Shown: piece by piece, positions 13,001 to 53,595 of the stretch
Numbering within the stretch: the first letter of the stretch is position 1
Layout: every line of letters starts with the position of its first letter
Assembly: GCF_000317065.1 (NCBI RefSeq)
Contig: NC_019701.1
Coordinates: 744,001-808,000 of the forward strand
Length of the DNA: 64,000 bases
Reading direction: 5' to 3'
Source of the DNA: Pseudanabaena sp. PCC 7367
GTDB taxonomy: Bacteria; Cyanobacteriota; Cyanobacteriia; Pseudanabaenales; Pseudanabaenaceae
The notes under the pieces: model-generated
What the model was told of the DNA's origin: nothing
Databases searched by the model: none
The model's input: the letters and a program-made list of their open reading frames with translations, nothing else
Translations under genes and position numbers: made by a program

Positions 13001-13576
13001 CACCAATTCATCGGCAGTTAATAATAGTTCTTGGCGTAATTGTTCAAGATCAGCAGTCTGAAGCTGTTGTTCAAAGCGATCGAGAATCTTTTCAACCCCT
13101 TCCTCAAAAATTATTAATGCCGGATCAACATCTTCTTCTTGTTGCAAGAGCGCATTTTCGTCGTCTTCATGCAGATCGCCGAGCAAGTCTTGGAGTGGTT
13201 CAAAAGTTTGTGCAAAAGCATTGTCCAACCAGGACTGATCGATCTCATTGCCCTGGCGGTGGAGAGCACTAACATTACGCAAGCAGTCAACCCCTTGCAA
13301 TAGTAGGGTCTCAATTTCGCTACTAATGGTTGTGGACTGATGGCGCAATCGTAAAATTTTCAAGAAATCCTCTAGACGGTGTGCCACCTGGCTGAGGGGA
13401 ATAAACCCCATCATTGCTGATCCACCTTTAACCGAGTGCGCTGCTCGCATTGCGCGATCGAGATCCTGGGGGTCGGCAATACTGGAGGCAAGCCCCAAAA
13501 TAACTGACTCGACCTGCTCAAAATACTCTTCTGTTTCGTCTAGGAAATTAATCCGGATTTGCTGTTCTTTATCCAT
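10058..13576 (-). CDS. CheA-type hybrid histidine kinase of a pilus/chemotaxis system
   Basis: 1172 residues. An N-terminal Hpt domain carries AAHSVKGGS with the phosphorylated His47. A weaker Hpt-like region follows (about 150-240), then a long acidic Glu/Asp/Ser linker (about 260-540). Next come a CheA dimerisation segment, a HATPase (N-box HLLRNAFDHGIE, DDGGGI, GRGMGMDIV), a CheW-like domain and a C-terminal receiver (LIVDDSVNVRR, CDIEMPRLDG, SKPYEEE). This is the PilL/HmpE/PixL architecture. It should take signals from the two receptors through CheW and phosphorylate the CheY and PatA-like regulators. GAAGGA lies 6 bases before ATG 13576. It is the last gene of the locus. Confidence 0.92.
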   Translation of the reverse strand: MDKEQQIRINFLDETEEYFEQVESVILGLASSIADPQDLDRAMRAAHSVKGGSAMMGFIPLSQVAHRLEDFLKILRLRHQSTTISSEIETLLLQGVDCLRNVSALHRQGNEIDQSWLDNAFAQTFEPLQDLLGDLHEDDENALLQQEEDVDPALIIFEEGVEKILDRFEQQLQTADLEQLRQELLLTADELVAFGFMANLQPFIQLCQSVQAQTKAAAVDQSPSLAKRSLVLWRRSHALVLRGSLAKLPTELDGFASVSTIANANATDQPRAIVNSVNDLAPDSVDDFSDDSLNNAIATPDQSNPIDLKSPLDFEQALELEQILAQPAQPAFEPTIQPEPTTSDRKLAVTDADLDADSSNSGKSESELEEVQSPPFSELEPELELNDFLDFSLEEDPDLTDLQAAFSTSQADLDLPELEHLAANELEALQSAFALSPGLPKDLPADLFVDPFADQAIDDLDTPPTLELELEDQFQSQLEPKLESKLEPASDQPDSQPPTISPSVSSSALTPASPASPGHKLEAQTVRVPVEQLKQFNNLFGKLVLERNTVNLRLEQLKGFVALMRQRIYQLDQSNTQLRKWYDRASLEGIVPGAEQSATQNIQKSNQPEANPANPANQTDALQDQFDALELDRYSDLHLISQEQIETIVQIKEVSTDIDLELQEMTLAVQNLNQTTQSLQGNVSRTQMLSFAEAIKRYPRAVRDLSNQFKKPVNLVIEGETTLMDRAVLEALANPLMHLLRNAFDHGIEDRQTRSAAGKPAEGTIKLSAVNRGLQTVITLQDDGGGIRLDKIRDRVLAMGLSDREVQSMSDADILNCIFEPGFSTAEQVTELSGRGMGMDIVQTALKDIRGDIQVQSKPGLGTTFILRVPFTLSILRVMLLEQAGIVFAVPADTVQEVHRLESDWVKTEQGSAYLNRDDQKIDIVFLEQHLAFRRAGKPFVMPGTPVVNQPMAIIVGEHNEGTSSLYVSRHWGEQEVTLRPIISPLPLPPGFISSIVLGDGRVVPLVDPLELVEWCMMNHGLETDAAPRSPQPEAIDLAQTPTVLIVDDSVNVRRYLALTLEKAGYQVEQAKDGQEAVDKLNSGLAVHAVVCDIEMPRLDGYGVLEAIKSKTEFEQLPIVMLTSRSNEKHRKLALNLGASAYFSKPYEEEQLLETIADFISKSALPMATAVG

Positions 13577-13720: not shown

Positions 13721-16060
13721 TTAACCCGCGTCAACCTTAAATTGCTCCACGGCGGACTCTAGTTCCCTCGAAACTTGGGCAGTGGTTTGCATCGATCCGG
13801 CTACTTTTTGCGAAGACAAAACGCGCTGCTCTGATTGTTGGGCAATTTGCTCCATCAGTTTAGTGACTGCCAGGGATGTATCAGTTTGAGAGATGGTTTT
13901 TTGGGAGATTGATTGCATCAGCTTGTTAATACTTTTCGATCGACCCAGTACCTTTTCTAGCCGTAGTTTAGTGGCTTCGACTAGGCGACTGCTATCAACC
14001 ACTTGCGAAGTACCTACTTCCATCGCCGCCGCTACTTCCTTGGTTTCTAACTGAATCGCTGTCACAATTTGGGCAATTTCTTTGGTGGCGATCGATGATT
14101 GTTCGGCCAAGGTGGCGACTTGTTCGGCCACAATCGAAAAACCTTCACCCTGCTCCCCGGCTCGGCTTGCTTCCACACTAGCATTAATTGCTAAGAGGTT
14201 GGTTTTGAGGGCGATTTCTTCAATCAACGAAACTACCTGAGAAATCTTTTGCGAAGACTCACCCAATCGCTTCATTTTCTTGGCAGTTTCCCCCATTGTG
14301 GTGCGCAAACCACTAATACTAGTTACGGTTTTATCAATCACTTTTGCGCCTCTTTGGGTCACCGTATAGGCATCATTCGCCAAATTAGAAGCCTGGTTAG
14401 CATTTTTAGACACCTCCTGAATCGATCGTGACATTTCTGCGACCGAGTCCAGGGTTTTACGGGTTTCCTCGGCTTCGGCTACGGCTTGGGTGGCTAGCAG
14501 TTGAATTGATTCGGTGTTTTCTACGAAGGCGGAACTAACCTGACCACTGGACTGTTTCACCCGTACCGCAATGTCTTTGAGGTTGTCGATCATGGCATTA
14601 AACAAATCGGCCACGGTACTCATTTCCATCGATTGCAAATTAGCACGTACGGTCAGATCGCCATCAACGGCATTACCAACGTCATCCAGGAGCTGATAGA
14701 TTTCCTGCTCTAGGGTTTCTTTTTGTTTTTGTTGCTCGGCGGCCAGCTTTTTGAGGGCGGCTTCGGCTTCTTGCTGCTGCTGAATCACCTTTTGCTGTTC
14801 TTCGGCACTGGCCTTGAGTGCGATCTCGGTGCGTTTTTGTTGATAAATAATCACGATCGCCACCAGCACCAGGAAGGAAACTATGCCAAGGGTGAACCAA
14901 TACCAATATTTCTGCACAAACTGGGCAAAGCTGAGCTCGCCTAAATCTGCGTAGGGGCCAATTTTGAGGTCAAGGAACAAATCATCGACCGATCGATAGT
15001 TAAGCGGCACAGTCCAACCTTCTGCTTTGGCTGCCTTGGCTGCTTCACTATTGTTGGGCATGGCGATCAAAGCCGCCGCTACCTGTTCTGACAGTTCATT
15101 GGGGGTATTCTTGGTGGCGACAAAGGGCCACTCTGGATACAAATCGGTACTGAGCAAGAACGGGAAATCCTTTTGCAAGTCAGTTTGTTGGTTAATCACC
15201 ACAAACTCATTCAGGTTGATTTTGCCTTCATTCTCCATCCGCTCTAGGGTATCAGTACGGATAGCACCAAAGTCCACCTGGCGATCGCGCACCGCATAGA
15301 CTACTGTGTCATGGGTATCGCCAAAAGTCACCTCTTCTAAGTCACGGGATGGGTCGATGCCAACATCTTTTAATTCTTTCCACTGCATTTGCCACCCCCC
15401 CAGGGAAGTCTCATTCACCGCCATCATTTTTTTGCCCCTGAGATCCCTAAGCTCTTGCAGGTCGTTGCGATCGGCACGGCGGAGGATTACACCACCAAAC
15501 ACGGTATATGGATTACCGAGTCTGAGGTTTTTGAGGGTGGCGATCCGATTTGCATCATAAAGTCCTTCAAAATCAATATACATACCGGGGTTGGCAATCA
15601 CAAAATCGATCGTGCCTGCTTCTACGGCTTGATAGGTCTCCTCAAAATCGAGCGGTACAATCTCAAATGTATAGCCAGAGATTTCTTTGGTTAAGTAGTC
15701 AGCCGTTGCTTGCCATTGCTTGAACACCGCTTCATCGCCACGTTTTGCCAGCACCCCAATTTTAACTGCGGTTTTTTGGGCTGGGGCTGTGGGTGCAGGT
15801 GGAGCAGGTGCTGGAGTTGGCGGAGAGGCTTGATTTGTGGGTGCGGGTGGAGTGGTTGCTGGAGTTTGGGTTGGCTGGGTTTGTGCCGTTGCCATTTTGA
15901 TTGGATTAAGCGCTGCTGGGATTAAGGGCATGGCGGCAGTACCAACCAGGAGCAAAGCCGCGATCAGGAATGATTGACGCTGCTTCGGCTGAGGGATGAT
16001 GGAACCAACTATTTTAGGTGTGGCGATCGATTTGGGCGATTTGGGTTGCTGAGTAGTCAT
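13721..16060 (-). CDS. Methyl-accepting chemoreceptor with PhnD-like periplasmic binding domain
   Basis: 779 residues. A short cytoplasmic start leads to a hydrophobic segment (about 30-50), then a Pro/Thr/Ala-rich stretch (60-97). A PhnD/SsuA/transferrin-type substrate-binding domain follows (about 98-375; [25 protein letters not shown]). A second membrane helix lies near 385-410, then a coiled coil and the signalling domain. The hairpin tip is canonical ([16 protein letters not shown]). No clear HAMP domain is seen after the helix. PhnD-fold domains bind small oxyanion or organic ligands such as phosphonates, so the protein may sense one directly. It lies between the other receptor and cheA. 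Confidence 0.88.
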
Positions 16061-16169
16061 GATTTTTGGTTGTGAACTTACTAGATGGAATTACTAATTG
16101 GTGAAATCACAAAAGTAGCGGTTTGATGTTGATCATTTACTGCTTGTTCACTTCTGCTCTATTCCCTCT

Positions 16170-18623
16170 CTATTCCTCCTCGGTAACTGTAAATTGCTCC
16201 ACCGCCGACTCTAGACTTTTGGCAACTTGTCCGGTGGCTTGAATCGATTGGGCAATTTGCTGCGAAGATGCCAATCGTTGCTCTGATTGTTGGGCAATTT
16301 GCTCCATCAGTTGGGTCACCGCCAAAGATGTATCAGACTGAGAAGCAGTCGCTTCGGAGATCGATTGCATCAACTCGTTAATACTTTGCGATCGCTCCAA
16401 AACTCTACCAAGACGCTGTTTGGTGGATTGAACCAGACGGCTACTGTCGATCGCCTGAGCGCTACCTACTTCCATTGCTTGGGCTACTTCTTGGGTTTCT
16501 AATTGAATTGCGGACACAATTTGGGCGATCTCCTGGGTCGCCGTAACAGACTGTTCAGCCAGAGCCCCCAACTGTTTACCAAAGATCGAGAACCCTTGAC
16601 CATGTTCGCCCGCTCGACCCGCGTTAATTGCCAAGAGATTGGTTTTAAGGGCGATTTCTTCAATCAATGACACCACCTGAGAAATCTTCCTAGAAGATTC
16701 TTCTAAATACTTCATTTTGGTGGCAGTTTCCCCCACTGTTGCCCGCAAACCGAGGATACTTTTTACGGTTGCATCGATCGCCTTGGTTCCTTGTTGGGTG
16801 ACGGTGTAGGCATCTTGAGCCAGCTTAGAAGCTTGGTTGGCATTCTGGGATACTGCCCGAATCGAGGTTGACATTTGTTTCACCGAAGTCAGAGCTGCGC
16901 GGGTTTCGGCAGCCTCTTCTACTGCTTGTTCAGCCAAGACTTGAATTGATTCTTCATCTTTGCTTAAAGAAGATCCCACCTGCACACTGGAATGCTTCAC
17001 CTGAATCGCAATATCGTTCAGGTTGTCGATAATCGCATTGAACAAATCAGCTACCGTACTCATTTCCATTGAGTCTAGGCTGGCACGCACGGTCAGATCG
17101 CCATCGATCGCATTGCCAACCTCGTCGAGCAGTTTATAAATGCCATTTTCCAATACTTCTTTCTCTTGCTTTTGCTGTTGGGCGATCTCTTCTTGCTCGC
17201 CAATCAACTTACCCACCTGGGTTACCAAATTATTGAAGTTATCAGCCAGCACCACTGTTTCCACCGTTCCTTCTAAATTAGCCTGGGTACTTAAATCCCC
17301 TTCTGCCACCTGTTGGGCCTTATTAGCTAAGTTGGTGAGGGGATTAGATAATTGTCGTGCCAGCAACACAATCACACCAGTTGCCACCAGACCTAGGGCG
17401 ATCGCAGTCACGCCCAATCGCACAGCCAGGTTACGCCCGGCTGCCGCTACTTCTTGCTGTTCCACTGAAGCAACCGTAACTAAGTTAGTGCCACTCACCG
17501 TGAATAACTGAAAAATCCGCCCTTCTCTTTCAAAGGACAGCACAAAATGATCACTCTCGATCGCTGATTCTCTCACTTCTACATTTGAGATCCCAGCTTG
17601 GTTTGCTAAAGCAGAGAGAACTGAACTAGGGTCTTGCGGTGAGGCAAGTAAAGTATTAGCCCAAAGAGTTGCAGTCGCAGAAACTGGCTGTCCACCAACC
17701 ACTTCACCTAGCAATTGCATTTGTTCAAGACTAATTGTATTTAGAGTCTTGCCAGAGTTTGCATCAATAATCTGGATTTGCTCTGACCCGAAAACCTCAG
17801 CTTCTACAATTTCTTCGAGCACTTCATTGAGCGAATCAATCGATACCCCCACCTTGGTCACGCCCAGTAGCTCCCCTGAATTGGGATTTTTAATCGAATT
17901 AACTAGTTCTAGTACGGCGGAATTAGCCGATTCATCAAATTCTGGCTTCAGAATTGCTTGCCCTTGATCTCTGCCAATCTGCCACCATTCTTCATCACTT
18001 TGCACAAAGTCAGAAGTGGGGGAGTTGTAGGCCACATTAAAACCATTCCGCTCGGTCAGAATAATTTCTGCCACCCCTTTATCCTCGGCCACAGCTTGCA
18101 AATATCTATTTAAACTGGCATTAGGCGTGAGCAGTTTGGTTTGCGCAAATTGCCGTTCAATTTGTTCGATCGGCTTGTTTAATAGTCCTTGCGATTGCGC
18201 TTTCTGGGTGCCAGCAGTCAAGGAATTAAGCACCAAAGGATTAGCAGTTAGCAAATCAGTGGACTCAAACGCATTTTCTAGAAACTCTTCAGTAGCCTCA
18301 GAGGTAAGAAAGACCCCTTTCTCCAGGTTATTCAAAAAAGTCTCTTTGGCTTGGTTTTGAGTGGATTGAATCGCCACCCCACTAGCGATCGCCAACGGAA
18401 TCAACACAGTTGGCAAGACGGTTAACAACAATCGATTTTGTAGCGTGTTTGCACTTTTACGCAGCGATCGGGGTTGTTTTTGTTTCGTACTCTCTTGCTT
18501 TTTCTTGCGCTTGGCTGTTTTTGACTGTGGCTTTGGTAATTCAAATCCAGGTTCAGCGGCAATCCCATTGGCTGGAGCAGAAGTTTCTGGGTTTGAGGTG
18601 AAGGCGTTCTCAGAAATAGTCAT
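16170..18623 (-). CDS. Methyl-accepting chemoreceptor (dCache-like, HAMP) with shortened signalling tip
   Basis: 817 residues. A Lys-rich cytoplasmic start is followed by a membrane helix (about 66-88), a roughly 300-residue periplasmic sensor region resembling a double Cache domain, a second helix (about 405-425), a HAMP domain (SNPLTNLANKAQQVAEGDL) and an MCP coiled coil. At the hairpin tip the protein reads LLAINAGRAGEHGQGF, whereas the neighbouring receptor reads [20 protein letters not shown]: four residues, including the conserved Glu, are missing in frame. FGKQLGA also replaces VAEQVAT. The receptor may couple poorly to CheA or depend on mixed complexes. The PilJ/HmpD position in the locus is clear. 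Confidence 0.87.
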   Translation of the reverse strand: MTISENAFTSNPETSAPANGIAAEPGFELPKPQSKTAKRKKKQESTKQKQPRSLRKSANTLQNRLLLTVLPTVLIPLAIASGVAIQSTQNQAKETFLNNLEKGVFLTSEATEEFLENAFESTDLLTANPLVLNSLTAGTQKAQSQGLLNKPIEQIERQFAQTKLLTPNASLNRYLQAVAEDKGVAEIILTERNGFNVAYNSPTSDFVQSDEEWWQIGRDQGQAILKPEFDESANSAVLELVNSIKNPNSGELLGVTKVGVSIDSLNEVLEEIVEAEVFGSEQIQIIDANSGKTLNTISLEQMQLLGEVVGGQPVSATATLWANTLLASPQDPSSVLSALANQAGISNVEVRESAIESDHFVLSFEREGRIFQLFTVSGTNLVTVASVEQQEVAAAGRNLAVRLGVTAIALGLVATGVIVLLARQLSNPLTNLANKAQQVAEGDLSTQANLEGTVETVVLADNFNNLVTQVGKLIGEQEEIAQQQKQEKEVLENGIYKLLDEVGNAIDGDLTVRASLDSMEMSTVADLFNAIIDNLNDIAIQVKHSSVQVGSSLSKDEESIQVLAEQAVEEAAETRAALTSVKQMSTSIRAVSQNANQASKLAQDAYTVTQQGTKAIDATVKSILGLRATVGETATKMKYLEESSRKISQVVSLIEEIALKTNLLAINAGRAGEHGQGFSIFGKQLGALAEQSVTATQEIAQIVSAIQLETQEVAQAMEVGSAQAIDSSRLVQSTKQRLGRVLERSQSINELMQSISEATASQSDTSLAVTQLMEQIAQQSEQRLASSQQIAQSIQATGQVAKSLESAVEQFTVTEEE

Positions 18624-32310: not shown

Positions 32311-34188
32311 ATGTCTTTTAAACCATCCGCCTACATCAACAGCGTAGGCAAATTTCTGCCAGGTAACCCGATCGCCAACAGCGAAATGGAAGCCTACCTG
32401 GGCATGATCGGCGATCGCCCCTCCAGGGTCAAAAACCGCATCCTCAAAAGCAACGGCATCCAGAACCGTTACTATGCCCTGGACAAAGCACAAAACAGCA
32501 CTCACCTCAACAGCGAAATGGCCGCCGCCGCGATCCGCGATTCCCTCCAGGCGAGCAACCTGGAACCGAAAGCGATCGATTTACTGGCCTGCGCCACCAC
32601 CTGGCCAGACTTGCTTGTGCCCAGCTTCGCTAGTATGGTGCATGGCGAACTATCCGAGTTTGCGCCCTTAGAAACAATCTCCACCCAGGGGGTCTGCTGT
32701 GCTGGGGTTTCCGCCCTGAAATATGCCGCTAATCAAGTGGAGTTGGGGAATAAACACCATGCGATCGCTGTCGCCTCAGAACTACCATCGCGGTTATTTA
32801 AAGCCTCTCGATTTGAAGCCGAATCACGAATCCAAGCTGGTAAATCATTGCCTTTTGATACAGAATTCCTGCGCTGGATGCTTTCCGATGGTGCTGGCGC
32901 AATGCTGATTCAAGACCAGCCCAATCCAAAGGGACTTAGCTTGAAAATAGAATGGATCGAGTTGATTTCCCATGCCAATGCCTTCCCAGTCTGTATGTAT
33001 GCGGGGGCTTCAGATCAGAATATAGAAAAGACCTGGATGAATTATCCTTCCTATACGGAGGCAGCTAGCCAGGGAGCATTGAATCTGCGCCAGAACATCA
33101 GGCTATTGGAACATGTGGTCAAACTGGGTGTGGAAGGCTGGATTAAGTTAATTAAGGCAGGGCGAGTCCGGCCAGAGGAGATCGATTGGCTTTTGTGTCA
33201 CTATTCTTCGCATTTCTTTCGCAGCCAGATCGTGGAATTGCTGGAGTATGCCGATTGTATGATTCCTGAATCCAGGTGGTTTACTAATCTTTATACAAGG
33301 GGGAATACAGGCTGTGCTGCGATCTACTTGATGATCGAGGAACTATTCAATTCCGGTAAGCTGGAAGCAGGCCAAAAGATTTTCTGCTTTGTGCCCGAAA
33401 GTGGCCGATTCACTACTGCCTACATGATGATGAGCGTGGTGGATGGTAGTTCGCAATCTAGTCAAATAGTAATGAGTAAGCCAACGATCGCCACAACCAC
33501 AGCACCCCAGGAACCGATCGCCAAATCTTCTAATTCTTCTACTTCAAGCCAGCTATTACAGGATTTAGCGCTGGTATGGCTGGAATTCGATCGCCAAATT
33601 CGCTCCGTGCCGATCGTGCGCAAGCTGCATCGCGGTGAATTCACTTTGGAAGACTATAAAGCATTATTGCGAAACTTACGCCCCCAGGTGGTAGAAGGAG
33701 CCAGATGGATCGCCAGAGCTGCGTCGAATATGATTGATTTCCAATTGCGATCGACCTTCATTGGCCATGCCCAGGATGAGCATCGTGATTATCAAATGCT
33801 AGAGCGTAATTATGTGTCTGTGGGTGGTGAATTGAGTGAGATTGCCAATGCCCAGAAGAATATTGGTAGCGAAGCCCTTTCTGGTTTTATCTTTAATCAA
33901 GCATCACAACCCAACCCGATCGACTTGTTGGGCAGCATGTTTATTATTGAGGGATTAGGGAATAAACTGGCGGGGGAATGGGCAGAGGCGATCAAAACTA
34001 CTCTTCTCTTAAGCAATGAGCAGGTTTCGTTTTTGGCCTATCACAGCGCCAATGATGAATCCCATTTAGATAAGCTGAATACTTTGATCAATGCACCCTG
34101 GATGACCGAGGCGATCGCCAGGTCTATTGTCAAAACTGCTAAGGTCACGGCTAGACTATATTTACTACAACTGGAGGAAATTGCCTGA
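32311..34188 (+). CDS. Fusion of a KAS III-like ketosynthase with a heme-oxygenase-like diiron domain
   Basis: 625 residues. Residues about 1-380 follow the KAS III fold: TQGVCCAGVSAL holds the acyl-carrying Cys129 or Cys130, WLLCHYSS has His297 in place of the usual HQAN, and RGNTGCAA supplies Asn332. A Ser/Thr/Ala linker (about 383-413) leads to a heme-oxygenase-like domain (about 415-620) with candidate iron ligands Glu462, His486/His491, Glu547 and the HxxxDxxH triad His578, Asp582, His585. That pattern marks diiron oxidases or oxygenases such as CADD, UndA and SznF. A chain-building domain fused to an oxidative one suggests a lipid or polyketide product. The stop overlaps the next gene's ATG (TGATG). 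Confidence 0.8.
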   Translation: MSFKPSAYINSVGKFLPGNPIANSEMEAYLGMIGDRPSRVKNRILKSNGIQNRYYALDKAQNSTHLNSEMAAAAIRDSLQASNLEPKAIDLLACATTWPDLLVPSFASMVHGELSEFAPLETISTQGVCCAGVSALKYAANQVELGNKHHAIAVASELPSRLFKASRFEAESRIQAGKSLPFDTEFLRWMLSDGAGAMLIQDQPNPKGLSLKIEWIELISHANAFPVCMYAGASDQNIEKTWMNYPSYTEAASQGALNLRQNIRLLEHVVKLGVEGWIKLIKAGRVRPEEIDWLLCHYSSHFFRSQIVELLEYADCMIPESRWFTNLYTRGNTGCAAIYLMIEELFNSGKLEAGQKIFCFVPESGRFTTAYMMMSVVDGSSQSSQIVMSKPTIATTTAPQEPIAKSSNSSTSSQLLQDLALVWLEFDRQIRSVPIVRKLHRGEFTLEDYKALLRNLRPQVVEGARWIARAASNMIDFQLRSTFIGHAQDEHRDYQMLERNYVSVGGELSEIANAQKNIGSEALSGFIFNQASQPNPIDLLGSMFIIEGLGNKLAGEWAEAIKTTLLLSNEQVSFLAYHSANDESHLDKLNTLINAPWMTEAIARSIVKTAKVTARLYLLQLEEIA

Positions 34189-35099
34189 TGACTTCCTTTA
34201 ATACTAACATTACCGAACACCCCAGCCACGATCGCTTGAATCCTGATGCCTGGGAAGCGTTATATCTAGATCAGGCAATCCCGCTGGATATAAATGCTAA
34301 GGCGCTGATGATTAAGGACTTACGCAGTTGGAGTAGGAACTATTTACTGATCCCAATTAAGCTGATCGCCAATGTGCTGCTAGCGCTGATTATGACCTTC
34401 AAGCGATTGCTACCATTTCAATTCAGTGCTTACAAGTTAATGCATCATGCGGCGGCGTTCTTTCTGAAGCATTTTGTCACCCCAGAGGCTTGCTATCTAA
34501 TTGTCAGGCATATCTGTATTGGTTCTAATGTGGTTAATTTCTTGATTGATAATGGCCCCGATCCGAGCATTCCCAGGTCTTCCCTTTATCCTCGCACTGT
34601 TGATGATCTGGCTGAGAATGCCTTTTTGGAGCACGACCTGATTCTCTATAACTTTGTATTTGACTATCATCAAGCCCAGCAAAAAAATCCCAATTGGCTG
34701 AAGCATGTCCACGATCGCGGCATCAACTATGACAGTATTCAACCGGTTGAAGTTGAGGTGGATTTGTCAAAGCGGGGCTGGTTCAAGATTCTGGATTTGG
34801 AATCGGCGATCGAATTGTTCAAAGTTTTTTATTCGCTCTGCCTCACCAGTGATGAGTTTGCCAGAGCAGTGCTGTCTTTACAATTCGATGAAAATTTTGG
34901 TTGTTATGTCAGTGCCATCACTCAGAACTACGACTGGAATCATGTGATCGCTAATCGCCATCCCCTTGCGCCCAACAGCCCTTTTAATGCTGCCCGCGAT
35001 CTGTTTTTGCATGGCATCATTACCGAGGCGTTGTATCGATTCTTAGAGATCCAGAAAGCCATGAGCTTAAGTCCTGCGATCGCAAATAAGCAAGATTAA
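34188..35099 (+). CDS. Protein of unknown function, coupled to the KAS III-diiron fusion
   Basis: 303 residues. The ATG shares one base with the stop of the preceding gene, and GGAGG lies upstream inside that gene, so translation is coupled. A hydrophobic region (about 55-75, LLIPIKLIANVLLALIMTF) may associate with the membrane, followed by an amphipathic stretch rich in His (LMHHAAAFFLKHF, then LIVRHICIGSNVVNFLID). Conserved-looking acidic and His positions (AENAFLEHDLILYNFVFDYHQ) could bind metal or an acyl chain. No known domain was recognised. It ends before a strong terminator, so the two genes form one unit and probably one pathway. Confidence 0.75.
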   Translation: MTSFNTNITEHPSHDRLNPDAWEALYLDQAIPLDINAKALMIKDLRSWSRNYLLIPIKLIANVLLALIMTFKRLLPFQFSAYKLMHHAAAFFLKHFVTPEACYLIVRHICIGSNVVNFLIDNGPDPSIPRSSLYPRTVDDLAENAFLEHDLILYNFVFDYHQAQQKNPNWLKHVHDRGINYDSIQPVEVEVDLSKRGWFKILDLESAIELFKVFYSLCLTSDEFARAVLSLQFDENFGCYVSAITQNYDWNHVIANRHPLAPNSPFNAARDLFLHGIITEALYRFLEIQKAMSLSPAIANKQD

Positions 35100-35138: not shown

Positions 35139-35175
35139 ATTCCTATGTATACTTTTAAGGCATAGGAATTTTTTT
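35139..35175 (+). terminator. Terminator of the KAS III-diiron two-gene unit
   Basis: ATTCCTATG (35139-35147) pairs perfectly with CATAGGAAT (35161-35169), followed by a run of T to 35175. It lies 40 bases after the second gene. Confidence 0.85.
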
Positions 35176-44226: not shown

Positions 44227-44356
44227 GATAAGATGTTATATGTATTTAACTTATCCGAAACCAGTCATGCCGTATGATAGATTGAAGCCAGGATTAAGTT
44301 CGCTGCACTCTAATTAGCCTTTATCGTATCTGCGCTTTTAGTAAGCGTTGCCTAAG

Positions 44357-46459
44357 ATGTCTTTGCACCAAGAAGGCGATCTGATTGCCCAAAGATATAA
44401 AATTATTAGTCTCCTGGGAGAGGGTGGAAGTGGTTCAACCTATCAAGCCAGGGACTTGAGTAATAACCGATTGGTGGCAATCAAAGTGGTTTCCCTGGTC
44501 ATGGCAGAGAACTGGAAAACCCTGGAGTTGTTTGAGCGGGAAGCAAAGGTATTAGCGAATCTAGATCATCCTTTGATTCCTAATTACATTGACTATTTTC
44601 AAGTTGATACTGAAGGCGATCGACGTTTTTATCTGGTGCAAGAACTAGCCCCAGGGCGATCGCTGGCAACCCTGGTAGAGAAAGAGGGAAAACGAAACGA
44701 AGCAGAAGCCAAAGATATTGCATTGCAGGTGCTTTATATTCTTGATTACCTGCATAAACTTACACCACCTGTAATCCATCGTGATATTAAGCCTCAAAAT
44801 ATTATTCGCCACGATGATGGGAAGGTTTATCTGGTGGACTTTGGCGCAGTACAGGATGTCTATCGCAATACCTTGACGCGGGGCGGTACGTTTGTAGGTA
44901 CCTATGGCTACATGCCGCCTGAGCAGTTTCGCGGTCACATTGCCTTTGCTTCTGATTTATATAGCTTGGGTGCTACTTTGCTATTTCTACTCACTGGCAG
45001 GAGCCCTGATTTGTTTTCTCAGAAGCGAATGAAGATCGATTTTCGTCCCTGGGTCAGGCTTTCCCCATCTTTTGTTAAGTGGCTCGATCGACTATTAGAG
45101 CCTTATCCAGAGGACAGGTTTCAGAGTGCAGAGGCAGCGATCGCTTATTTAATCGATCCTGAACAGGCGGCGATCGCTAAAACTGAAGGGATCAAGAATA
45201 CAAAGCTTCAAAATCCAGATGCTAAAGAGCCGGAAAGGGTCTATTTTACTAAACCAGTAAATAGCAGAATTATCCTCAAAAAAGAACGGCAAAAATTAAC
45301 GATTAGTGTTCCTGCATCACCTTTTAGTAATAAGCATTTCACCACTTTATTATTTGCATTGGCAGGCATTCCTTTTATCTGCCTCTTGATATTTGCTTTC
45401 GCTTCTGGGAGTGAAGATGGGATAGTTACAATATTTTTTGGATCCATCTTTGCCCTATATATTGTAGCTGTCATAATTGGTGCCATTATTAGAGATATTG
45501 GCCTCCATGAGCAGCTAACGATCGACTACAAGGAATTATGCATAAAGCGTTGGTTCTTCAAGCTGAAGCCTTCTTACTTGATTGTTAATATAAGAAATAT
45601 TGCAAGAACAGGTTTAAAACCTGTAATCGATAATGATGCGAATAATTGGAGTGCCACATTTGCGATCCAGACGAAAGATAAAAAAAGCTATTCATTTTCG
45701 CGCTCTTTGACAGAGAGTGAGTCAAGATGGTTAATGCAGGAAGTAAATGATTTCTTGGCTGGTATTGCTAAGTTCAAACCAAAATCTAAAGCTAAAACTA
45801 CTGGTAGTGTCCCCACCATGCCGATCGCCAGAAGTAAATCACTAAAGCGAAGCGATCATACTAGTGACACATCCCAATCAAAGCAAACAGCAATTATTGC
45901 GAAACCTAAGGACACTGATATCAAGCTAGAGCGAATTGATTTAAAGCTAAGCATTGATATTCCGCCTAGCTCAAAAGTATCATTTACAGTAATTATTTTA
46001 GTGCTTATTAGTCTTAATTTTGCTGTACTAGGTTTACGAAGAATCATCAAAGATGCCTTCATAACTAACGCAGCCTTAATTTCAACCATAATAGCTGTCA
46101 TTCTCATTTCATTTATTATGTTCTATCTGCTTTTATTTTTGGTCAATTCTGGCCTGTCACTGGGATTACAGGAGAAAGTGGTATTTGATCCCCAGAAATA
46201 TTTAATTAAGCGAAAGCTAGTGAGTCGTGAATTTGACCCTACGATCGGCAAAGTCAAAGATATCGATCGAGCCTATGCTAAAAAGACTTCGCGCAAAAAT
46301 CACGTACATCGATACGCTTGCATATTACAGACAAAGAGAGGTGAGACTCATCGTTTTTGTAGCAATCGTTCTGAGCAAGAAGTAGACTGGTTAGTACAAG
46401 AAATCAATCAGTTCTTAACTGAAATGAATTCACTGAGGAAAAGTAATGTATCTCTCTAA
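44357..46459 (+). CDS. Ser/Thr protein kinase with two tandem membrane modules
   Basis: About 700 residues from ATG 44357 (TTG 44348 is an alternative). The kinase domain (about 10-265) is complete: GEGGSGSTYQARD, VAIKVV, HRDIKPQNII, DFGAVQD, GTYGYMPPEQF. Two related modules follow, each with two membrane helices, a beta-rich segment and a closing helix of the type E.(R/V)DWL.QE(I/V)N.FL. Module 1 spans about 305-480; module 2 about 530-695. The last codons overlap the next gene by 14 bases. The kinase is a paralogue of the one at 47040-48404. Targets are unknown. Confidence 0.9.
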   Translation: MSLHQEGDLIAQRYKIISLLGEGGSGSTYQARDLSNNRLVAIKVVSLVMAENWKTLELFEREAKVLANLDHPLIPNYIDYFQVDTEGDRRFYLVQELAPGRSLATLVEKEGKRNEAEAKDIALQVLYILDYLHKLTPPVIHRDIKPQNIIRHDDGKVYLVDFGAVQDVYRNTLTRGGTFVGTYGYMPPEQFRGHIAFASDLYSLGATLLFLLTGRSPDLFSQKRMKIDFRPWVRLSPSFVKWLDRLLEPYPEDRFQSAEAAIAYLIDPEQAAIAKTEGIKNTKLQNPDAKEPERVYFTKPVNSRIILKKERQKLTISVPASPFSNKHFTTLLFALAGIPFICLLIFAFASGSEDGIVTIFFGSIFALYIVAVIIGAIIRDIGLHEQLTIDYKELCIKRWFFKLKPSYLIVNIRNIARTGLKPVIDNDANNWSATFAIQTKDKKSYSFSRSLTESESRWLMQEVNDFLAGIAKFKPKSKAKTTGSVPTMPIARSKSLKRSDHTSDTSQSKQTAIIAKPKDTDIKLERIDLKLSIDIPPSSKVSFTVIILVLISLNFAVLGLRRIIKDAFITNAALISTIIAVILISFIMFYLLLFLVNSGLSLGLQEKVVFDPQKYLIKRKLVSREFDPTIGKVKDIDRAYAKKTSRKNHVHRYACILQTKRGETHRFCSNRSEQEVDWLVQEINQFLTEMNSLRKSNVSL

Positions 46460-47024
46460 GCCCTTTGACAGTAATATCAAGCTAGAGAAAGAAGACACCA
46501 GTTTAACAATCGATATTCCGCCCCACCTCGATCCCAACAGCAACCTTGTTCTACTCATACATATAATATTGCCTCTGGCCGGGTCTCTTTTTTCAGCAGC
46601 AGCGATCGTCTTGCTGCTGTACTTCAGTGGCATTGAGATCAAACCCAGCCAATTACCAGTAATTATTCCGGCCGCTCTGATTCTGCTCACGATCGATTAT
46701 TTACTTGTTTATAATTTGATCCGTAATTACAAGGTTGATCTAAGCGAGCGGATTATTTTTGATAGCCAAAATATAACTTATATCGGTGAGCATCGAAACG
46801 GCAAAATCGGCCCCAAGATAACGAAGATTGACAACATTCTAAAGGTCTATAAAAAGAGAATTCTGTTTAATTGGCGCTGGCCAAAGTATGTTTGCATAAT
46901 TAAAACCAAACAAAACGGCACTTATTCATTTGCTTATAATCGCGCTGAAGATGAAGTAGACTGGCTAGTAGCCGAAATCAATAATTATATTGCCCAGCTT
47001 CCCTATCGATCGCGCTTTAACTAA
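46446..47024 (+). CDS. Free-standing copy of the kinase-linked membrane module
   Basis: 192 residues with no kinase domain. It aligns with the second module of the preceding kinase: SLTIDIPPHLDP against LSIDIPPSSK, two membrane helices, LSERIIFDSQN against LQEKVVFDPQK, and the closing AEDEVDWLVAEINNYI against SEQEVDWLVQEINQFL. The ATG lies inside the end of the kinase gene, with a 14-base overlap, and the stop is 15 bases before the next kinase. It looks like a module duplicated and released as its own gene, perhaps binding the kinase in the membrane. Confidence 0.75.
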   Translation: MYLSKPFDSNIKLEKEDTSLTIDIPPHLDPNSNLVLLIHIILPLAGSLFSAAAIVLLLYFSGIEIKPSQLPVIIPAALILLTIDYLLVYNLIRNYKVDLSERIIFDSQNITYIGEHRNGKIGPKITKIDNILKVYKKRILFNWRWPKYVCIIKTKQNGTYSFAYNRAEDEVDWLVAEINNYIAQLPYRSRFN

Positions 47025-47039
47025 TGCATTTATCTAAGC

Positions 47040-48404
47040 ATGAGCAACTTGCACCAACCTGGAGATATTATCAGCGATCGCTATCAAGTAATTGGCTTGC
47101 TAGGTTCAGGCTTGACTGGCAAAACCTACCGCGTAAATGACCTGAACCATGAACGTGAAGTTGCCATGAAGGTGGTTTCGCTCCAGGAAACAAGTGAGTG
47201 GAAAATTATTGAACTATTTGAACGTGAAGCCAGAGTATTGCAGAACCTCAGGCATGTGGCGATCCCAGCCTATGTTGATTACTTCCATGTTGATAGTAAC
47301 GCCGATCGCCGTTTTTATCTGGTGCAGGAGCTAGCTCAAGGGCAATCATTGGCAACCCTGGTGGAAAAGGGTTGGAAGCCAAGTGAAGCAGAAGTAAAAG
47401 ATATTGCGTTGCAAATACTTCATATTCTCGATTATCTACATAAGCTTACTCCACCAGTGATCCATCGTGATATCAAGCCTCAAAATATCATTTGCCGTGA
47501 TGATGGTAAGGTCTATCTGGTGGACTTTGGTGCGGTGCAAGATGTCTATCGCAATACCCTGACACGGGGTGGTACATTCGTCGGCACCTATGGCTATATG
47601 CCGCCGGAGCAGTTTCGCGGCCATATTACCTTTGCTTCTGATTTGTATAGTCTGGGCACTACCCTATTGTTTCTGCTTACCGGTAGAAGCCCCGATACTT
47701 TACCCCAGAAGCGAATGAAGATCGATTTTCATCCCTGGGTCAAGCTCTCACCTTCTTTTACTGCATGGTTAGATCAAATCCTGGAGCCGATCGTAGAGGA
47801 TCGCCTAGCTAGCGCCGAGGCCGCGATCGCCAAGTTACAAGCATCTCGATCGACTGCTCAAATAGCTAAATCTGCCCCGACAACAGCAGCTAGATTCCTC
47901 AAAAAGCCGAACTATAGCCGGATTGTAATCAGGAGGCGAGGTAACTATCTCTTGATTACAATTCCACCAAACCCAGACATGCTCACGATCGCTGGCATAT
48001 TTATGTTAATCCTCATTCTTTCACCGATGCTAGCCCTAATGAGCGGTGCTGCTACTGTGCAAGTGGTGACGGTGGCGGTTAGTATGCTGGTGATGGCAGT
48101 GGTTATGTTCGCTATTCTGCTTTCTTTTGGCGGCAGCGAGGAGCAAATTAGAATTACTGCCGATCGCCTGGAATTGAGCAAAAAGGTATTCGATTGGAAG
48201 TTCTGGATCTATTCCAGCGAGACTGCATTGGTGAAGCAGCTCTGGTGTGAAATGAATGTGCTCAGGAGTGGCCCCCACTATAACGGTGCGATCGAGGTGG
48301 GCGGAAATGTGCACAAGTTTGCCATTAGCCGCACCAAGCTTGAAGTTGAATGGTTGATCCAGGAGATTAAGCATTTCCTGAACAATTTAACAAGGGATTG
48401 CTAG
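47040..48404 (+). CDS. Ser/Thr protein kinase, paralogue with one membrane module
   Basis: 454 residues. The kinase domain has GSGLTGKTYRVND, VAMKVV, HRDIKPQNIIC, DFGAVQDVYRNTL and GTYGYMPPEQFRGHI, nearly identical at DNA and protein level to the kinase at 44357. One membrane module follows (NPDMLTIAGIFMLILIL, a second helix, and the closing KLEVEWLIQEIKHFL). The final codons (RDC, stop) may come from the adjacent transposase remnant, since the transposase reading frame begins at 48391. It forms a tight array with the two preceding genes and arose by duplication. Confidence 0.9.
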   Translation: MSNLHQPGDIISDRYQVIGLLGSGLTGKTYRVNDLNHEREVAMKVVSLQETSEWKIIELFEREARVLQNLRHVAIPAYVDYFHVDSNADRRFYLVQELAQGQSLATLVEKGWKPSEAEVKDIALQILHILDYLHKLTPPVIHRDIKPQNIICRDDGKVYLVDFGAVQDVYRNTLTRGGTFVGTYGYMPPEQFRGHITFASDLYSLGTTLLFLLTGRSPDTLPQKRMKIDFHPWVKLSPSFTAWLDQILEPIVEDRLASAEAAIAKLQASRSTAQIAKSAPTTAARFLKKPNYSRIVIRRRGNYLLITIPPNPDMLTIAGIFMLILILSPMLALMSGAATVQVVTVAVSMLVMAVVMFAILLSFGGSEEQIRITADRLELSKKVFDWKFWIYSSETALVKQLWCEMNVLRSGPHYNGAIEVGGNVHKFAISRTKLEVEWLIQEIKHFLNNLTRDC

Positions 48405-48816: not shown

Positions 48817-51800
48817 CTAAAACTGACAAGGCCCATTTTGTCCGCTAGGGCAGATCGTTGCGGCATCGGTTTTGAGATCCTTAGTGTTCGCACCACCCAG
48901 GTTTGCGCCACTCAAATTAGCCCCACTCAGGTTAACCCCAGTTAAATTAGCATCCAGTAAGTTTGCGCCACCCAAATCAGCCTGTGCCAGGTTTGACCAG
49001 GACAAATTGGTTGCAGCAAGATTAGAATTGCGTAGATTGGCAGTGCTGAGATTAAACCTGGATAGATCCTGGTTAGCTAGTTGTCTGCCTTCGATCGGTT
49101 GGTTAACAATTTGCCACATCAACCAATAGCGATCTTCTAGCTTGGTGGCTTGTTCAGTATTGCGATCGCCAAGCTTAGCACCTTTAAGATTAGTAACCGC
49201 TAAATCAGCACCTTGTAAATTAGCCCTGGTCAAATCCGTATTCGATAGGTTGGCAAACTTTAGTGAGGCTCCCTGTAAGTTAGTCCAAACCAGCGTAGAT
49301 TCATTAAATTGGGCACCATCAAGAGTAGCTTTAGTGAGGTTCGCGCCATTGAGATTTGCCCCACTCAAGTCGGCACCTTTGAGGTTGGCATCAGCAAAAT
49401 TAGCCTGGTTCAGCTTAGCTCCACTCAAATTGACATTCTCTAAGTTAGCACCACTGAAGTCAACTTCACTAAAGTCCTGATTACTGGCATTTTTAACCAC
49501 TTTTGTTTTTAGACCAGTTAGTAACACCATTCGGCGAACTGGCGGCACGGAATATAGGCCAAACAAAATTGCGATCGGGATGACGATCAAGATTGGCCAT
49601 TTGAGCAAGTTAAGAGTCTTGCCAGCCATCTTACCCATATCAACGCTGGGTTTCTTCGGTTTAGCTGATGGCTCCTTCACAATAGGCTGAGCAACATTTG
49701 CACCAGCCTGGGCAGCTACCTGGGGTTGCTGGCGTGGTGGTTGTCCCGGAGCCGGACTGTAGTTATCATTGGTGATAAAGGGATTACCAGCAACACCATT
49801 ATTTGGAACTCCTCCCGCCGTGAACATATCATCTGGAACTTCGGTCTCCAAATCCAAGAGTCCTGACCAATCGATATCGTCTTCCGATTCAAACAAGTTG
49901 GCAGTGTTCTGATAGCTACTGGCAGTATTGTTTTGCTTAGAACCCGAAGATTCATACCAGTTGGCGGGCTTATTATTTCCAGCATTGCCAGCGTTCCCAG
50001 ACTTACCCTCCGAAAAGGTTGGCAATGGGGGCAGTCCATCTGAAGCTGAATTACTATTGTTTGCTTGGGGTTTGTTTTTCCCTAGATTCGGCAAGCTAGG
50101 GGGATTGGGTGGGCGATTGTGAGGACGGCGATGCTTACTTAGATCCGGCATTGGCGGCAGCGGCAGTGCTGCAGCACGACTGTTTTTCTCTGCGGTTGAG
50201 GGCGTGGATGGGTCGTTGCTAGATTCCTCTTCTTCTTCTTTAAATCGAGCGCGGATTTCATCTAGGTTAAAGTTCCTCTCATAGAGAGTTGCGGGTGTAT
50301 TATCCACCGAATCGCTATCGTCGAGGTCTTCTAAAAGATTAGCTTCACTATCTTGATCGTCATTTAGATTAGGAATCGAGATGCCAGTATGCTCATCCTC
50401 ATGATCGCTAATTTCAGGCCACTGTTCCTCGCCATCGCTATCAAAAGCTGCTGCGATCTGATCAGCTTCATCGCTGGCATAGGGATTGGGAATGTCCATA
50501 TCATCGTCAACCGACATAATATGATCAACCAATCCTTGGGTGCTGAGATCATCTGATAAATCTAATCCAGGGGTGGGGATCGCTGGTGCAGAGGGGGGGG
50601 CTAATTCTGGCTCTGGGGCATCAATATTTTCTGCCAGTTGATCGGCTGGGGCATAATCCAGCTCAGCGATCTCCGCTTCCAACTGGGCTTCCAGGTCTGC
50701 ACCTAGTTCTTCTCCGAGTTCTTCTTCAAATTCTTCGCCAAATTGATCATTTAATTCACCATCAAATCCACTTTCATCAATATCAATATATTGTTCAATA
50801 TCTTCATCTGCACCATCTAACCGATCAATATTACTGTCTTGGTGATAGTCAATTTTAGTTGTTTCGTAGGCGGCTGCCATATCTGCAGGCACTGATGGTT
50901 CGGCCTCGGCTGATGATTCAAACACACGACCGATCGTTTCATTGGCATCTTCATCAAAATCTTCGTCAAAATCTTCATCAAAGCTATGACTATATTCTTG
51001 GCTAAAGTCAGCCTCCGCAGGAGCACCAATTAAAGGCCATTCCTCATTATTATCGGGATTATCGGGAATATTAGTAGAGGCAAAATCTTCATCAAAGTCG
51101 AGTGCAAAGTCTTGGATGATCGAGTCGGCAACATCAATTTCTGCGTTGTCATTATAGAACTCAGCATCTTGCGAAACCGCCGGTGCAGGAATAAACGCGC
51201 GGCCATATTCTCCTTCGATCACATTTGGATCAGTGCGGCCGGTCATATCCGCCTCGGCATCGATCGCTGCTGGAGGTGCAGCTAGTTCTTGCTCATTCAA
51301 ATCATCTGCATCGGTTAAGTTTGAGAGTTCAGGGGCTGATTGTGCCTCTTCGGCATCATCTGCATATTCAATATATTCATCACCATCACTATATTCATTA
51401 TCAAAATCAGCAGACTGATCGCTTGCAGCCAGGTCTGGCTCAATACTGGCATCAATACTAGGCTCAAGTTCATCGATATCCGATTCGACTTCTTCCCAGT
51501 CTTGCTCACTCAAGTCCGCTGCCTGTTCAAATTGATCCCCTGCGGAGAAGTCTTCTGCAGCGATCGCAAATTCCTCGCCAGGCTGGCCTAAATCAACCAA
51601 TTCATCCTCTGATTGGTCATCCACCCATTCATCATAATCACCTGGGTTAGGTTCGGGATCGACTTCCGCTTCGATCGCCTCATCCCAGTTTTCTGCGGCG
51701 AATTCAACATCAGATTCTTCTAGCTCGAATTCTTCCTCAATTGAATCAAAAGTCTCAGACTCTGCTTCCGCCTGGAGATCTTGCCAATCAGATTCGGATA

Positions 51801-53595
51801 TTTCAGGTATTTCTGAGCCATCAGCGGTAGCGATCGCCTCGCTATCCTCCATTGCAAATTCTTCGCCATCTACCCATTCATCTGTTTCATCTGGCTGGGA
51901 TCGATCTTCTTCTTCTTCAAAGGCTGCATCTTCGATCGCTGCGCCCGAATAGTCCTGATCTGCTTGACGATCGTCAGTTTCCACCAAAGCATCATCTGCA
52001 TCATATTGATCGCTTTGAGCGCTTTGATCACTCTGTTCAGCGACATCACCAAAATCCTCCGCATCAACCCATTCATCTGCCTCAGCGGCCGCTTCAAAGC
52101 TAGCAAAAGCCTGCTCCGATTGTTCGTCAAAATCAGATTCTAAATCTTCTTCAACAATTTCTAGATCATCGGTTTCAACCTCAGCATCCCAATCTTCCTC
52201 TGGATCCTCTTCTGGATCTTCTATTTCTGCTTGGGCTGTGGCCTCAAAGTCATCATCGAATCCTTCAACAAATTCAACCTGCTCCGATGTTTCCGCCTCG
52301 AAGTTTGCATCCCAATCTTCTTCTGGATTTTCTTCTGGGGTTGCTATTTCTGCTTGGGCTGTGGCCTCAAAGTCATCATCGAACCCTTCGACAAATTCAA
52401 CTTGCTCCGATGTTTCCGCCTCGAAGTTTGCATCCCAGTCTTCCTCTACTTCCGCATCCTGATCAACAGGCTCATGATCATCCAGGTCTACTTGTTCAAA
52501 ACCAGTAACATCGCCGACTTCCTCCAGCGAAGAGGCTGGTTGTTCAAAATCTGCTTCTAACTCTTCTTCGATCGCCTCGTCGAAATCATCTATTTGCCCA
52601 GCTGCTTGCTCAGTTTCTTCTAGATCTAGTTGGAAGTCAGCAGCGACGGATTCATCATAATTCTCTTGATCATAATCCTGCTCAAGGGTTTGCAATTCAT
52701 ATTCTGAGCCAGTAGATGAAGGATCGTCTGAGTGATAGGGTTCTGTTTCAATATCACTATTATCATCTAGATCATCACCTAGATCCGCTTCAGGACTTAT
52801 GTCTTCGATCGCAGCCGATTCTTCCGATTGCTCTGGTTCATTTAGGCTATTCAGGTCATTCAGGTCATCCAGAATAAAAGTTGAGGCCGCCTGGAGATCC
52901 GGCATCTCCTCAACCTCTTGATCTAATTGCTCTAAAGTCTCTAGGCTTAATTCTAGTTCTGCCGACTCAGCGTCTTCACCGCCATCTAGATCAAGGCCAA
53001 GATCGCCAGCATTGGGGTCTGGTAAATCAAGGTTACCATCCTCAAAAAATGTAGAAGCAGCATCTCCGGCATTAAATATCTCTGCATCCAGCAGTCCAAG
53101 ATCTTCATTGTCAAGGATTGCCTCATCAATGTCACCAAGATCTAACCCCAGATCTTCACCAAAGTCTAAATCCGCATCTAGATCTTCAATGTCTTCAATG
53201 GCTTCGATGTTTTCATTTTCGTCAAAGTTAGCATTATCAGCATCACTGGCAGGTTGATTAGGCTTACGATCGCCCGTGCCGATGCCAGTAATCCTGGTGC
53301 GATCGACAATCAGCCAATCTATCTCATCATTTCCATTGGAGCCACTAGCACCATTACTACCCTTGCGATTTGCCTCCGACTCCTCGGTCTCGAATGAGTC
53401 TAGCCAATCCAGGCTTTCTGAGCCACCATTTTCCTGTAACTCTGGGTTTTGCTCGCTTGACACTCCATCTCCGCGATCGTTTACATCGGATAGGATCAGC
53501 CAGTCAATATCGTTTTTACCAGCTTCATTTTGCTGGCCAGTGCCAGAGTCCTTGGAACCTTCATCCCCAATTGGCGAACCAAAGTTTGATGACAT
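48817..53595 (-). CDS. Giant acidic membrane protein with C-terminal pentapeptide repeats
   Basis: 1592 residues. The first 1300 are extremely Asp/Glu rich, with aromatic anchors recurring in the acid: DIDWLI, SLDWL and EIDWLI near the start, EEDWDA three times, and DEWVD three times. A 41-residue unit is repeated twice. A Pro/Asn-rich stretch precedes one membrane helix (about 1328-1348). The C-terminal 240 residues are pentapeptide repeats (ANLENVNLSGAKL, ADLSGANLNGANL) interrupted by DRYWLMWQIV, ending in two Cys. The topology suggests a long unfolded acidic tail on one side and a beta-helix on the other. GAGGGG lies before ATG 53595. Confidence 0.85.
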   Translation of the reverse strand: MSSNFGSPIGDEGSKDSGTGQQNEAGKNDIDWLILSDVNDRGDGVSSEQNPELQENGGSESLDWLDSFETEESEANRKGSNGASGSNGNDEIDWLIVDRTRITGIGTGDRKPNQPASDADNANFDENENIEAIEDIEDLDADLDFGEDLGLDLGDIDEAILDNEDLGLLDAEIFNAGDAASTFFEDGNLDLPDPNAGDLGLDLDGGEDAESAELELSLETLEQLDQEVEEMPDLQAASTFILDDLNDLNSLNEPEQSEESAAIEDISPEADLGDDLDDNSDIETEPYHSDDPSSTGSEYELQTLEQDYDQENYDESVAADFQLDLEETEQAAGQIDDFDEAIEEELEADFEQPASSLEEVGDVTGFEQVDLDDHEPVDQDAEVEEDWDANFEAETSEQVEFVEGFDDDFEATAQAEIATPEENPEEDWDANFEAETSEQVEFVEGFDDDFEATAQAEIEDPEEDPEEDWDAEVETDDLEIVEEDLESDFDEQSEQAFASFEAAAEADEWVDAEDFGDVAEQSDQSAQSDQYDADDALVETDDRQADQDYSGAAIEDAAFEEEEDRSQPDETDEWVDGEEFAMEDSEAIATADGSEIPEISESDWQDLQAEAESETFDSIEEEFELEESDVEFAAENWDEAIEAEVDPEPNPGDYDEWVDDQSEDELVDLGQPGEEFAIAAEDFSAGDQFEQAADLSEQDWEEVESDIDELEPSIDASIEPDLAASDQSADFDNEYSDGDEYIEYADDAEEAQSAPELSNLTDADDLNEQELAAPPAAIDAEADMTGRTDPNVIEGEYGRAFIPAPAVSQDAEFYNDNAEIDVADSIIQDFALDFDEDFASTNIPDNPDNNEEWPLIGAPAEADFSQEYSHSFDEDFDEDFDEDANETIGRVFESSAEAEPSVPADMAAAYETTKIDYHQDSNIDRLDGADEDIEQYIDIDESGFDGELNDQFGEEFEEELGEELGADLEAQLEAEIAELDYAPADQLAENIDAPEPELAPPSAPAIPTPGLDLSDDLSTQGLVDHIMSVDDDMDIPNPYASDEADQIAAAFDSDGEEQWPEISDHEDEHTGISIPNLNDDQDSEANLLEDLDDSDSVDNTPATLYERNFNLDEIRARFKEEEEESSNDPSTPSTAEKNSRAAALPLPPMPDLSKHRRPHNRPPNPPSLPNLGKNKPQANNSNSASDGLPPLPTFSEGKSGNAGNAGNNKPANWYESSGSKQNNTASSYQNTANLFESEDDIDWSGLLDLETEVPDDMFTAGGVPNNGVAGNPFITNDNYSPAPGQPPRQQPQVAAQAGANVAQPIVKEPSAKPKKPSVDMGKMAGKTLNLLKWPILIVIPIAILFGLYSVPPVRRMVLLTGLKTKVVKNASNQDFSEVDFSGANLENVNLSGAKLNQANFADANLKGADLSGANLNGANLTKATLDGAQFNESTLVWTNLQGASLKFANLSNTDLTRANLQGADLAVTNLKGAKLGDRNTEQATKLEDRYWLMWQIVNQPIEGRQLANQDLSRFNLSTANLRNSNLAATNLSWSNLAQADLGGANLLDANLTGVNLSGANLSGANLGGANTKDLKTDAATICPSGQNGPCQF
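52200..52450 (-). repeat. Two 123-base tandem coding repeats in the acidic gene
   Basis: The two copies are offset by exactly 123 bases, for example an identical stretch starts at 52223 and 52346. They encode 41-residue units beginning EEDWDANFEAETSEQ and ending AQAEI plus an acidic spacer. A third partial unit (EEDWDAEVE) follows. DNA identity is very high, so the duplication is recent. Confidence 0.85.

Follow-up and report, generated by a model that had tools for sequence, protein, structure and literature searches.

The locus considered here raises the question of what a ketosynthase could make when it shares a polypeptide with a heme-oxygenase-like (HDO) domain and is coupled to a second gene of the Pfam family DUF6999. 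The unit lies in a stretch of 64,000 nucleotides of Pseudanabaena sp. PCC 7367 (contig NC_019701.1, positions 744,001 to 808,000, forward strand), the whole of which is referred to below as the window and supplies the coordinates used throughout.

Organization of the Locus

The unit and the elements that join and end its genes are as follows.

32311–34188, plus strand: fusion gene, 625 amino acids, StlD/DarB-type ketosynthase, linker and HDO domain
33442–33528, plus strand: Ser/Thr-rich interdomain linker, about 30 amino acids (median in relatives, 33)
34173–34190, plus strand: GGAGG ribosome-binding-like site and TGATG stop/start overlap, coupling the fusion gene and the DUF6999 gene
34188–35099, plus strand: partner gene, 303 amino acids, DUF6999 (PF22523; Pfam E 8e-106)
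35139–35175, plus strand: intrinsic-terminator-like hairpin and U7, with a 10-bp stem at 35139–35169

The stop codon of the fusion gene, TGA (34186–34188), shares its A with the ATG of the DUF6999 gene, and the GGAGG is located about 10 nt before that ATG. A preliminary description of this DNA had placed both open reading frames here, with the partner starting on the last base of the fusion stop, and had read them as a ketosynthase and a heme-oxygenase-like, dimetal-type domain in one polypeptide with a coupled partner gene. All of this is confirmed. It had also ended both genes at a strong terminator. The terminator is real, but it is of moderate strength (-10.8 kcal/mol, z -3.0, for the hairpin at 35139–35169, which is followed by U7) and lies 3' of just the second gene. 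With its loop of 11, this hairpin exceeds the limit of 8 set in the pattern scan and is therefore not listed there. Upstream, the minus strand carries a gene resembling 6-phosphogluconate dehydrogenase, and an unrelated ORF lies downstream at a distance of over 260 nt. Because both look unconnected to the unit, it stands alone in the genome of Pseudanabaena sp. PCC 7367, for which the proposal of a self-contained unit is upheld. Sequencing error does not account for the fusion, as 66 fused copies occur in other genomes, with linkers of 15 to 120 amino acids (median 33).

Elsewhere in the window, inspection by eye found two long chemotaxis-receptor-like proteins (13721–18623 and 10058–13576) beside a CheA-like hybrid kinase, the first of them with an apparent periplasmic phosphonate/phosphate-binding-type domain. 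Also by eye, the region 44348–48404 carries two serine/threonine kinase-like genes whose kinase domains are very similar, and the small gene between them resembles the C-terminal part, an arrangement that looks like a tandem duplication. A 1592-residue protein at 48817–53595 appears very acidic and of low complexity, with pentapeptide repeats at its end.

The Ketosynthase Domain

32329–33441, plus strand: ketosynthase domain, residues 7–377, StlD/DarB family (PDB 5gk0, StlD, E 5e-88)
32695–32697, plus strand: nucleophile Cys129, invariant in 87 sequences
33199–33201, plus strand: catalytic His297, within HYSS, invariant in 87 sequences
33304–33306, plus strand: catalytic Asn332, invariant in 87 sequences

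The StlD/DarB family closes cyclohexanedione and dialkylresorcinol rings. Residues 7–377 of the fusion protein score 450.4 bits with the NCBIfam model for StlD/DarB beta-ketosynthases (NF005293), just over its cut-off of 450, and several non-cyanobacterial relatives score under that cut-off. The closest solved structure is StlD, the Photorhabdus stilbene ketosynthase (5gk0), and alignment to it shows that the Cys-His-Asn active site matches. Cys129, His297 and Asn332 had been picked out earlier as candidate catalytic residues and are retained as such, while Cys130, offered as an alternative to Cys129, is not the nucleophile. Ser299 is likewise invariant in the 87 sequences. The HYSS motif had been interpreted as an alteration of the HQAN histidine motif; this was mistaken, as HYSS is normal in the StlD/DarB family and is present in StlD itself. 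The window ketosynthase therefore has the whole domain, the catalytic triad and the HYSS motif in common with StlD and DarB. It differs from them in being fused to an HDO domain, in having no DarA partner and in scoring 396 bits with the DarB-specific model NF053539, for which the cut-off is 550. Because the score is so far under this cut-off, ring formation by the window ketosynthase is not assured from its sequence.

The Heme-Oxygenase-Like Domain

33529–34185, plus strand: heme-oxygenase-like domain, residues 407–625 (model pLDDT 93.6; closest folds 3dde and CADD)
33694–33696, plus strand: Glu462, possible accessory carboxylate (E in 86 of 88 sequences, D in 2)
33766–33789, plus strand: alpha1 signature His486-xxx-Glu490-xx-Asp493, replacing the canonical E..H, invariant in 88 sequences
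33949–33951, plus strand: Glu547, alpha2 metal-ligand position, invariant in 88 sequences
34042–34065, plus strand: alpha3 HxxxDxxH, His578/Asp582/His585, invariant in 88 sequences

The window protein matches Pfam Haem_oxygenas_2 below threshold, and its relatives pass. Structure prediction, which the preliminary description had suggested as a check, gives this half of the protein the seven-helix heme-oxygenase fold of the HDOs. The model resembles 3dde (VIA Z 26.4), CADD (Z 24.6, rmsd 1.9 over 208 residues) and UndA (Z 19.9). The first of these, Sden_3740 from Shewanella denitrificans, is a single-domain TenA/HO-like protein and is the closest structure by sequence (E 6.5e-10) as well as by fold.

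The published HDO motif, E-H-E-H-(D/E)-H, occurs in about 85% of HDO groups (PMC11363339). The window domain fits its last four positions, and in alpha1 it carries H486-xxx-E490-xx-D493 in place of the first two. The same division is apparent in comparison with CADD, UndA, SznF, FlcD and HrmI, which share the seven-helix fold, the alpha2 Glu and the alpha3 HxxxDxxH with the window domain, whereas their alpha1 has E..H rather than HxxxExxD and the window domain alone is fused to a ketosynthase. In a gapless profile alignment to 3dde, Asp493 stands opposite a His of 3dde, while His486 is paired with a His. Seven residues of metal-ligand type are invariant in 88 sequences: His486, Glu490, Asp493, Glu547, His578, Asp582 and His585. 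Glu547 and the 578–585 triad had been recognized earlier, and the three alpha1 residues had been overlooked. Glu462 had been named with the former; it is well conserved, but it lies one helix before alpha1, the usual site of the first two metal ligands.

Individual invariant residues are only putatively assigned as metal ligands. Because HxxxExxD stands in for the alpha1 E..H, the domain could depart from UndA in its metal binding or its nuclearity. Heme binding, as in heme oxygenase proper, seems unlikely given that a non-heme ligand set is invariant.

DUF6999 and the Distribution of the Unit

The partner is a full-length member of DUF6999 (353.6 bits against a cut-off of 27). Among 51 sequences the residues R50, R107, H108, N122, P135, H149, D150, D203, D234, H275 and E280 are invariant. 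Residues 52–74 form a strongly hydrophobic helix, and the protein is probably membrane-associated. Although the predicted structure is confident (pLDDT 90.1), searches of the PDB found nothing under E 0.9 with Foldseek and a best VIA Z of 4.6 over 59 residues, which does not in itself prove a new fold.

DUF6999 is patchily distributed, occurring in 8 of 58 relatives of the window genome and giving 7 credible matches in 292 cyanobacterial genomes, with the window genome included in both counts. In the 12 loci from both searches, which have three genomes in common, a ketosynthase-HDO protein is encoded just upstream of DUF6999 every time, and in one of them (L007) its frame is interrupted at a single point. 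Scanning with the HDO alignment identified 78 loci, which are spread over oxygenic cyanobacteria and the divergent cyanobacterial MAG SZAS-4 as well as Alpha- and Gammaproteobacteria, Myxococcota and Actinomycetota. A ketosynthase is fused or adjacent in all 78, and DUF6999 is adjacent in 70. Five of the other eight are at contig ends, and two (L051, L057) have DUF6999 elsewhere in the genome. The last, in Microcoleus vaginatus HSN003 (L091, 7715–9396), has decayed: its ketosynthase is broken into several frames, its HDO domain is truncated and DUF6999 is gone from the genome. Every intact unit in complete sequence is accompanied by DUF6999, linked or unlinked. Conversely, all nine Pseudomonadota genomes with DUF6999 also encode the ketosynthase and HDO. 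Conservation of the partner beside the fusion, the second check put forward at the outset, is therefore established, and a Pfam family is tied to the ketosynthase-HDO unit as its obligate third component. DUF6999 would serve either as a tailoring enzyme, the second of the unit, or in a handling role.

The three parts also occur unfused in other phyla, as on a plasmid of Pseudoalteromonas sp. THAF3, where ketosynthase, HDO and DUF6999 are encoded separately but in unchanged order. Distances between ketosynthases correlate with those between HDO domains (r 0.91). The HDO tree requires only two changes between the fused and split states, so that independent and repeated convergent fusion is not claimed.

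Some candidate features of these loci did not hold up. In Kiloniellales (L066, L078) the fusion seemed to be extended far at its N terminus, but this stretch is a stop-free shadow frame, and the real upstream gene encodes an Aas-like MFS/acyltransferase/AMP-ligase. ORF clustering also suggested several conserved neighbors, which were discarded as antisense or out-of-frame readings of the three genes themselves.

In the open-access literature, no paper was found that mentions DUF6999 or that treats dialkylresorcinol along with heme oxygenase; a prior description in the subscription literature may exist. A 2026 review of HDOs does not mention ketosynthases (PMC13108848). Chalkophomycin, one genome-mining match for an HDO plus a ketosynthase, was judged unrelated from its abstract.

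Genes Adjoining the Unit in Other Lineages

Directly upstream of the ketosynthase, 16 loci of the non-cyanobacterial type (L014, 7624–8178, and 15 others) encode a membrane protein of about 200 amino acids that has no Pfam match and many invariant His and Glu residues (CHR, HxxxAHxD, ExHxH). It is found in Gammaproteobacteria, Myxococcota, an actinobacterial bin and the SZAS-4 cyanobacterium, is absent from the window's genome, and could be a fourth component that resembles integral-membrane oxygenases. DUF6999 shows no remote homology to this protein or to the HDO domain (hhalign probability <1%).

In a divergent subgroup of Pseudomonadota fusions (L102, 4469–7366, and L103–L107), a fatty-acid desaturase gene lies directly upstream; it was checked against Pfam in L102 and L107, and L103–L106 have homologous ORFs. 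A gene of the FA_hydroxylase type precedes the desaturase in L102–L106, as does a phospholipase D gene in L102. Caulobacter vibrioides, too, has DUF6999 and a StlD/DarB-like ketosynthase. In several Alphaproteobacteria (L079, 10471–11862; L085, 3483–4832; L110, 9557–11722) a cytochrome P450 gene directly follows DUF6999. In Inquilinus the P450 frame stays open for about 300 more amino acids on its upstream side, either as a genuine extension or as a shadow frame.

Relationship to DarA

DarB produces 4-carboxy-2,5-dialkylcyclohexane-1,3-diones (PMC5515871). DarA is annotated as the dialkylresorcinol aromatase (PMC3949708), and neither darA nor darB mutants of Pseudomonas chlororaphis make hexyl-propyl-resorcinol (PMC6403133).

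The DarA-DarB dialkylresorcinol clusters, including the bartoloside-like cyanobacterial clusters L125 and L126, have the ketosynthase family in common with the window unit. They contain a flavodoxin-like gene and neither HDO nor DUF6999, whereas the window unit contains HDO and DUF6999 and no DarA. The flavodoxin-like gene adjoining DarB in L125, L126 and Streptomyces (31% identical) is what we take to be DarA, from its position beside DarB and from general background on the brt cluster. DarA adjoins DarB in all 15 comparison loci, and HDO and DUF6999 occur in none of the stretches read there. A search of 396 Pseudomonadota genomes gave 12 DarA matches. DarA is missing from 30 of 31 genomes or records with the three-part module, including that of the window, where no DarA was found at E 1e-6 by a search that does find the Streptomyces DarA at 34% identity (positive control, 31–34%). 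The one exception (G724) has the module and DarA, the latter in a separate DarB-DarA locus. In the ketosynthase tree, HDO-linked and DarA-linked enzymes are separate except for one long-branched Streptomyces sequence, and constraining the module ketosynthases to one clade fits no worse and is not rejected (p-AU 0.79). The absence of DarA is not proof that the HDO domain does its job, and the product may stay a cyclohexanedione or be something else.

Proposed Pathway and Alternatives

The reading that we favor, at somewhat short of an even chance, is a DarB-type condensation to a ring acid, which the fused HDO rather than DarA then oxidizes. The ketosynthase would join two activated acyl chains, of which one is most likely a beta-ketoacyl thioester and the other a 2-enoyl thioester, and its family membership suggests a ring of the 4-carboxy-2,5-dialkylcyclohexane-1,3-dione type as the product. 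The HDO domain, as a dimetal-type oxidase in the same chain, would then oxidize the ring intermediate where DarA otherwise acts. UndA takes off a carboxylate and a beta hydrogen together. A step of this kind on a 4-carboxycyclohexane-1,3-dione would give a resorcinol, so the simplest oxidation would be an UndA-like oxidative decarboxylation to a 2,5-dialkylresorcinol or a further oxidized relative. The final compound would be an oxidized, acyl-derived molecule. In other lineages, genes for lipid-oxidizing or lipid-handling proteins (fatty-acid desaturase, fatty-acid hydroxylase, P450, phospholipase D, Aas-like, DgkA) adjoin the unit; these lineage-specific neighbors fit an acyl-derived product without identifying it. 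A more elaborate form of the proposal is tentative and somewhat unlikely in its entirety: an HDO with the HxxxExxD alpha1 would have replaced the flavodoxin-like DarA through in-cis oxidative decarboxylation of a DarB-type ring acid, and completion of an oxidized lipid in at least four phyla would require DUF6999 as an enzyme with a new fold.

An unlikely alternative, and the strongest of those considered, is that no resorcinol is formed. The ketosynthase would make a linear long-chain keto compound or a cyclohexanedione, which the HDO would hydroxylate or cleave, and the unit would serve in membrane-lipid remodeling. Neighboring genes for phospholipase D, fatty-acid hydroxylase, an Aas-like acyltransferase/ligase, diacylglycerol kinase and P450 are consistent with this, as are the hydrophobic helix of DUF6999 and the low score of the ketosynthase with the DarB-specific model. 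However, the active site and fold of the ketosynthase match the ring-forming StlD, and the neighbors are lineage-specific, with none beside the lone unit of the window's cyanobacterium.

It is slightly less likely again that the HDO acts before condensation, desaturating or oxidizing an acyl chain in the manner of MboA or UndA with their own substrates, and handing an unsaturated starter to the fused ketosynthase. The use of a 2-enoyl partner by DarB (PMC5515871), the presence of desaturation among known HDO reactions (PMC13108848) and the desaturase genes adjoining the module in several Pseudomonadota argue for this order of events. Nevertheless, the HDO is strictly kept even where a separate desaturase adjoins the module, and the exclusion of DarA would be left unexplained. 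There is very little likelihood that the domain is a structural, regulatory or self-sacrificing protein rather than an oxidase, for although the self-sacrificing CADD (PMC13108848) is among its closest folds and its alpha1 ligand motif is non-canonical, the seven metal-type residues are invariant in at least four phyla whether the domain is fused or free-standing, which fits a catalytic metal site.

Significance

A three-part unit of a ring-forming type of ketosynthase, an HDO and DUF6999 is now defined across at least four phyla, and an orphan Pfam family is linked to a pathway. The Pseudanabaena version, with only two genes, is small and suited to direct reconstitution, and the invariant HxxxExxD offers a test of metal-site variability in HDOs. 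If the HDO does the job of DarA, ring oxidation or aromatization would be added to the reactions of HDOs, and one ketosynthase family would be served by two unrelated oxidants. The occurrence of the same three components in distant bacteria, with an oxidase in the place of DarA, points to an unexplored route to oxidized lipid-like molecules.
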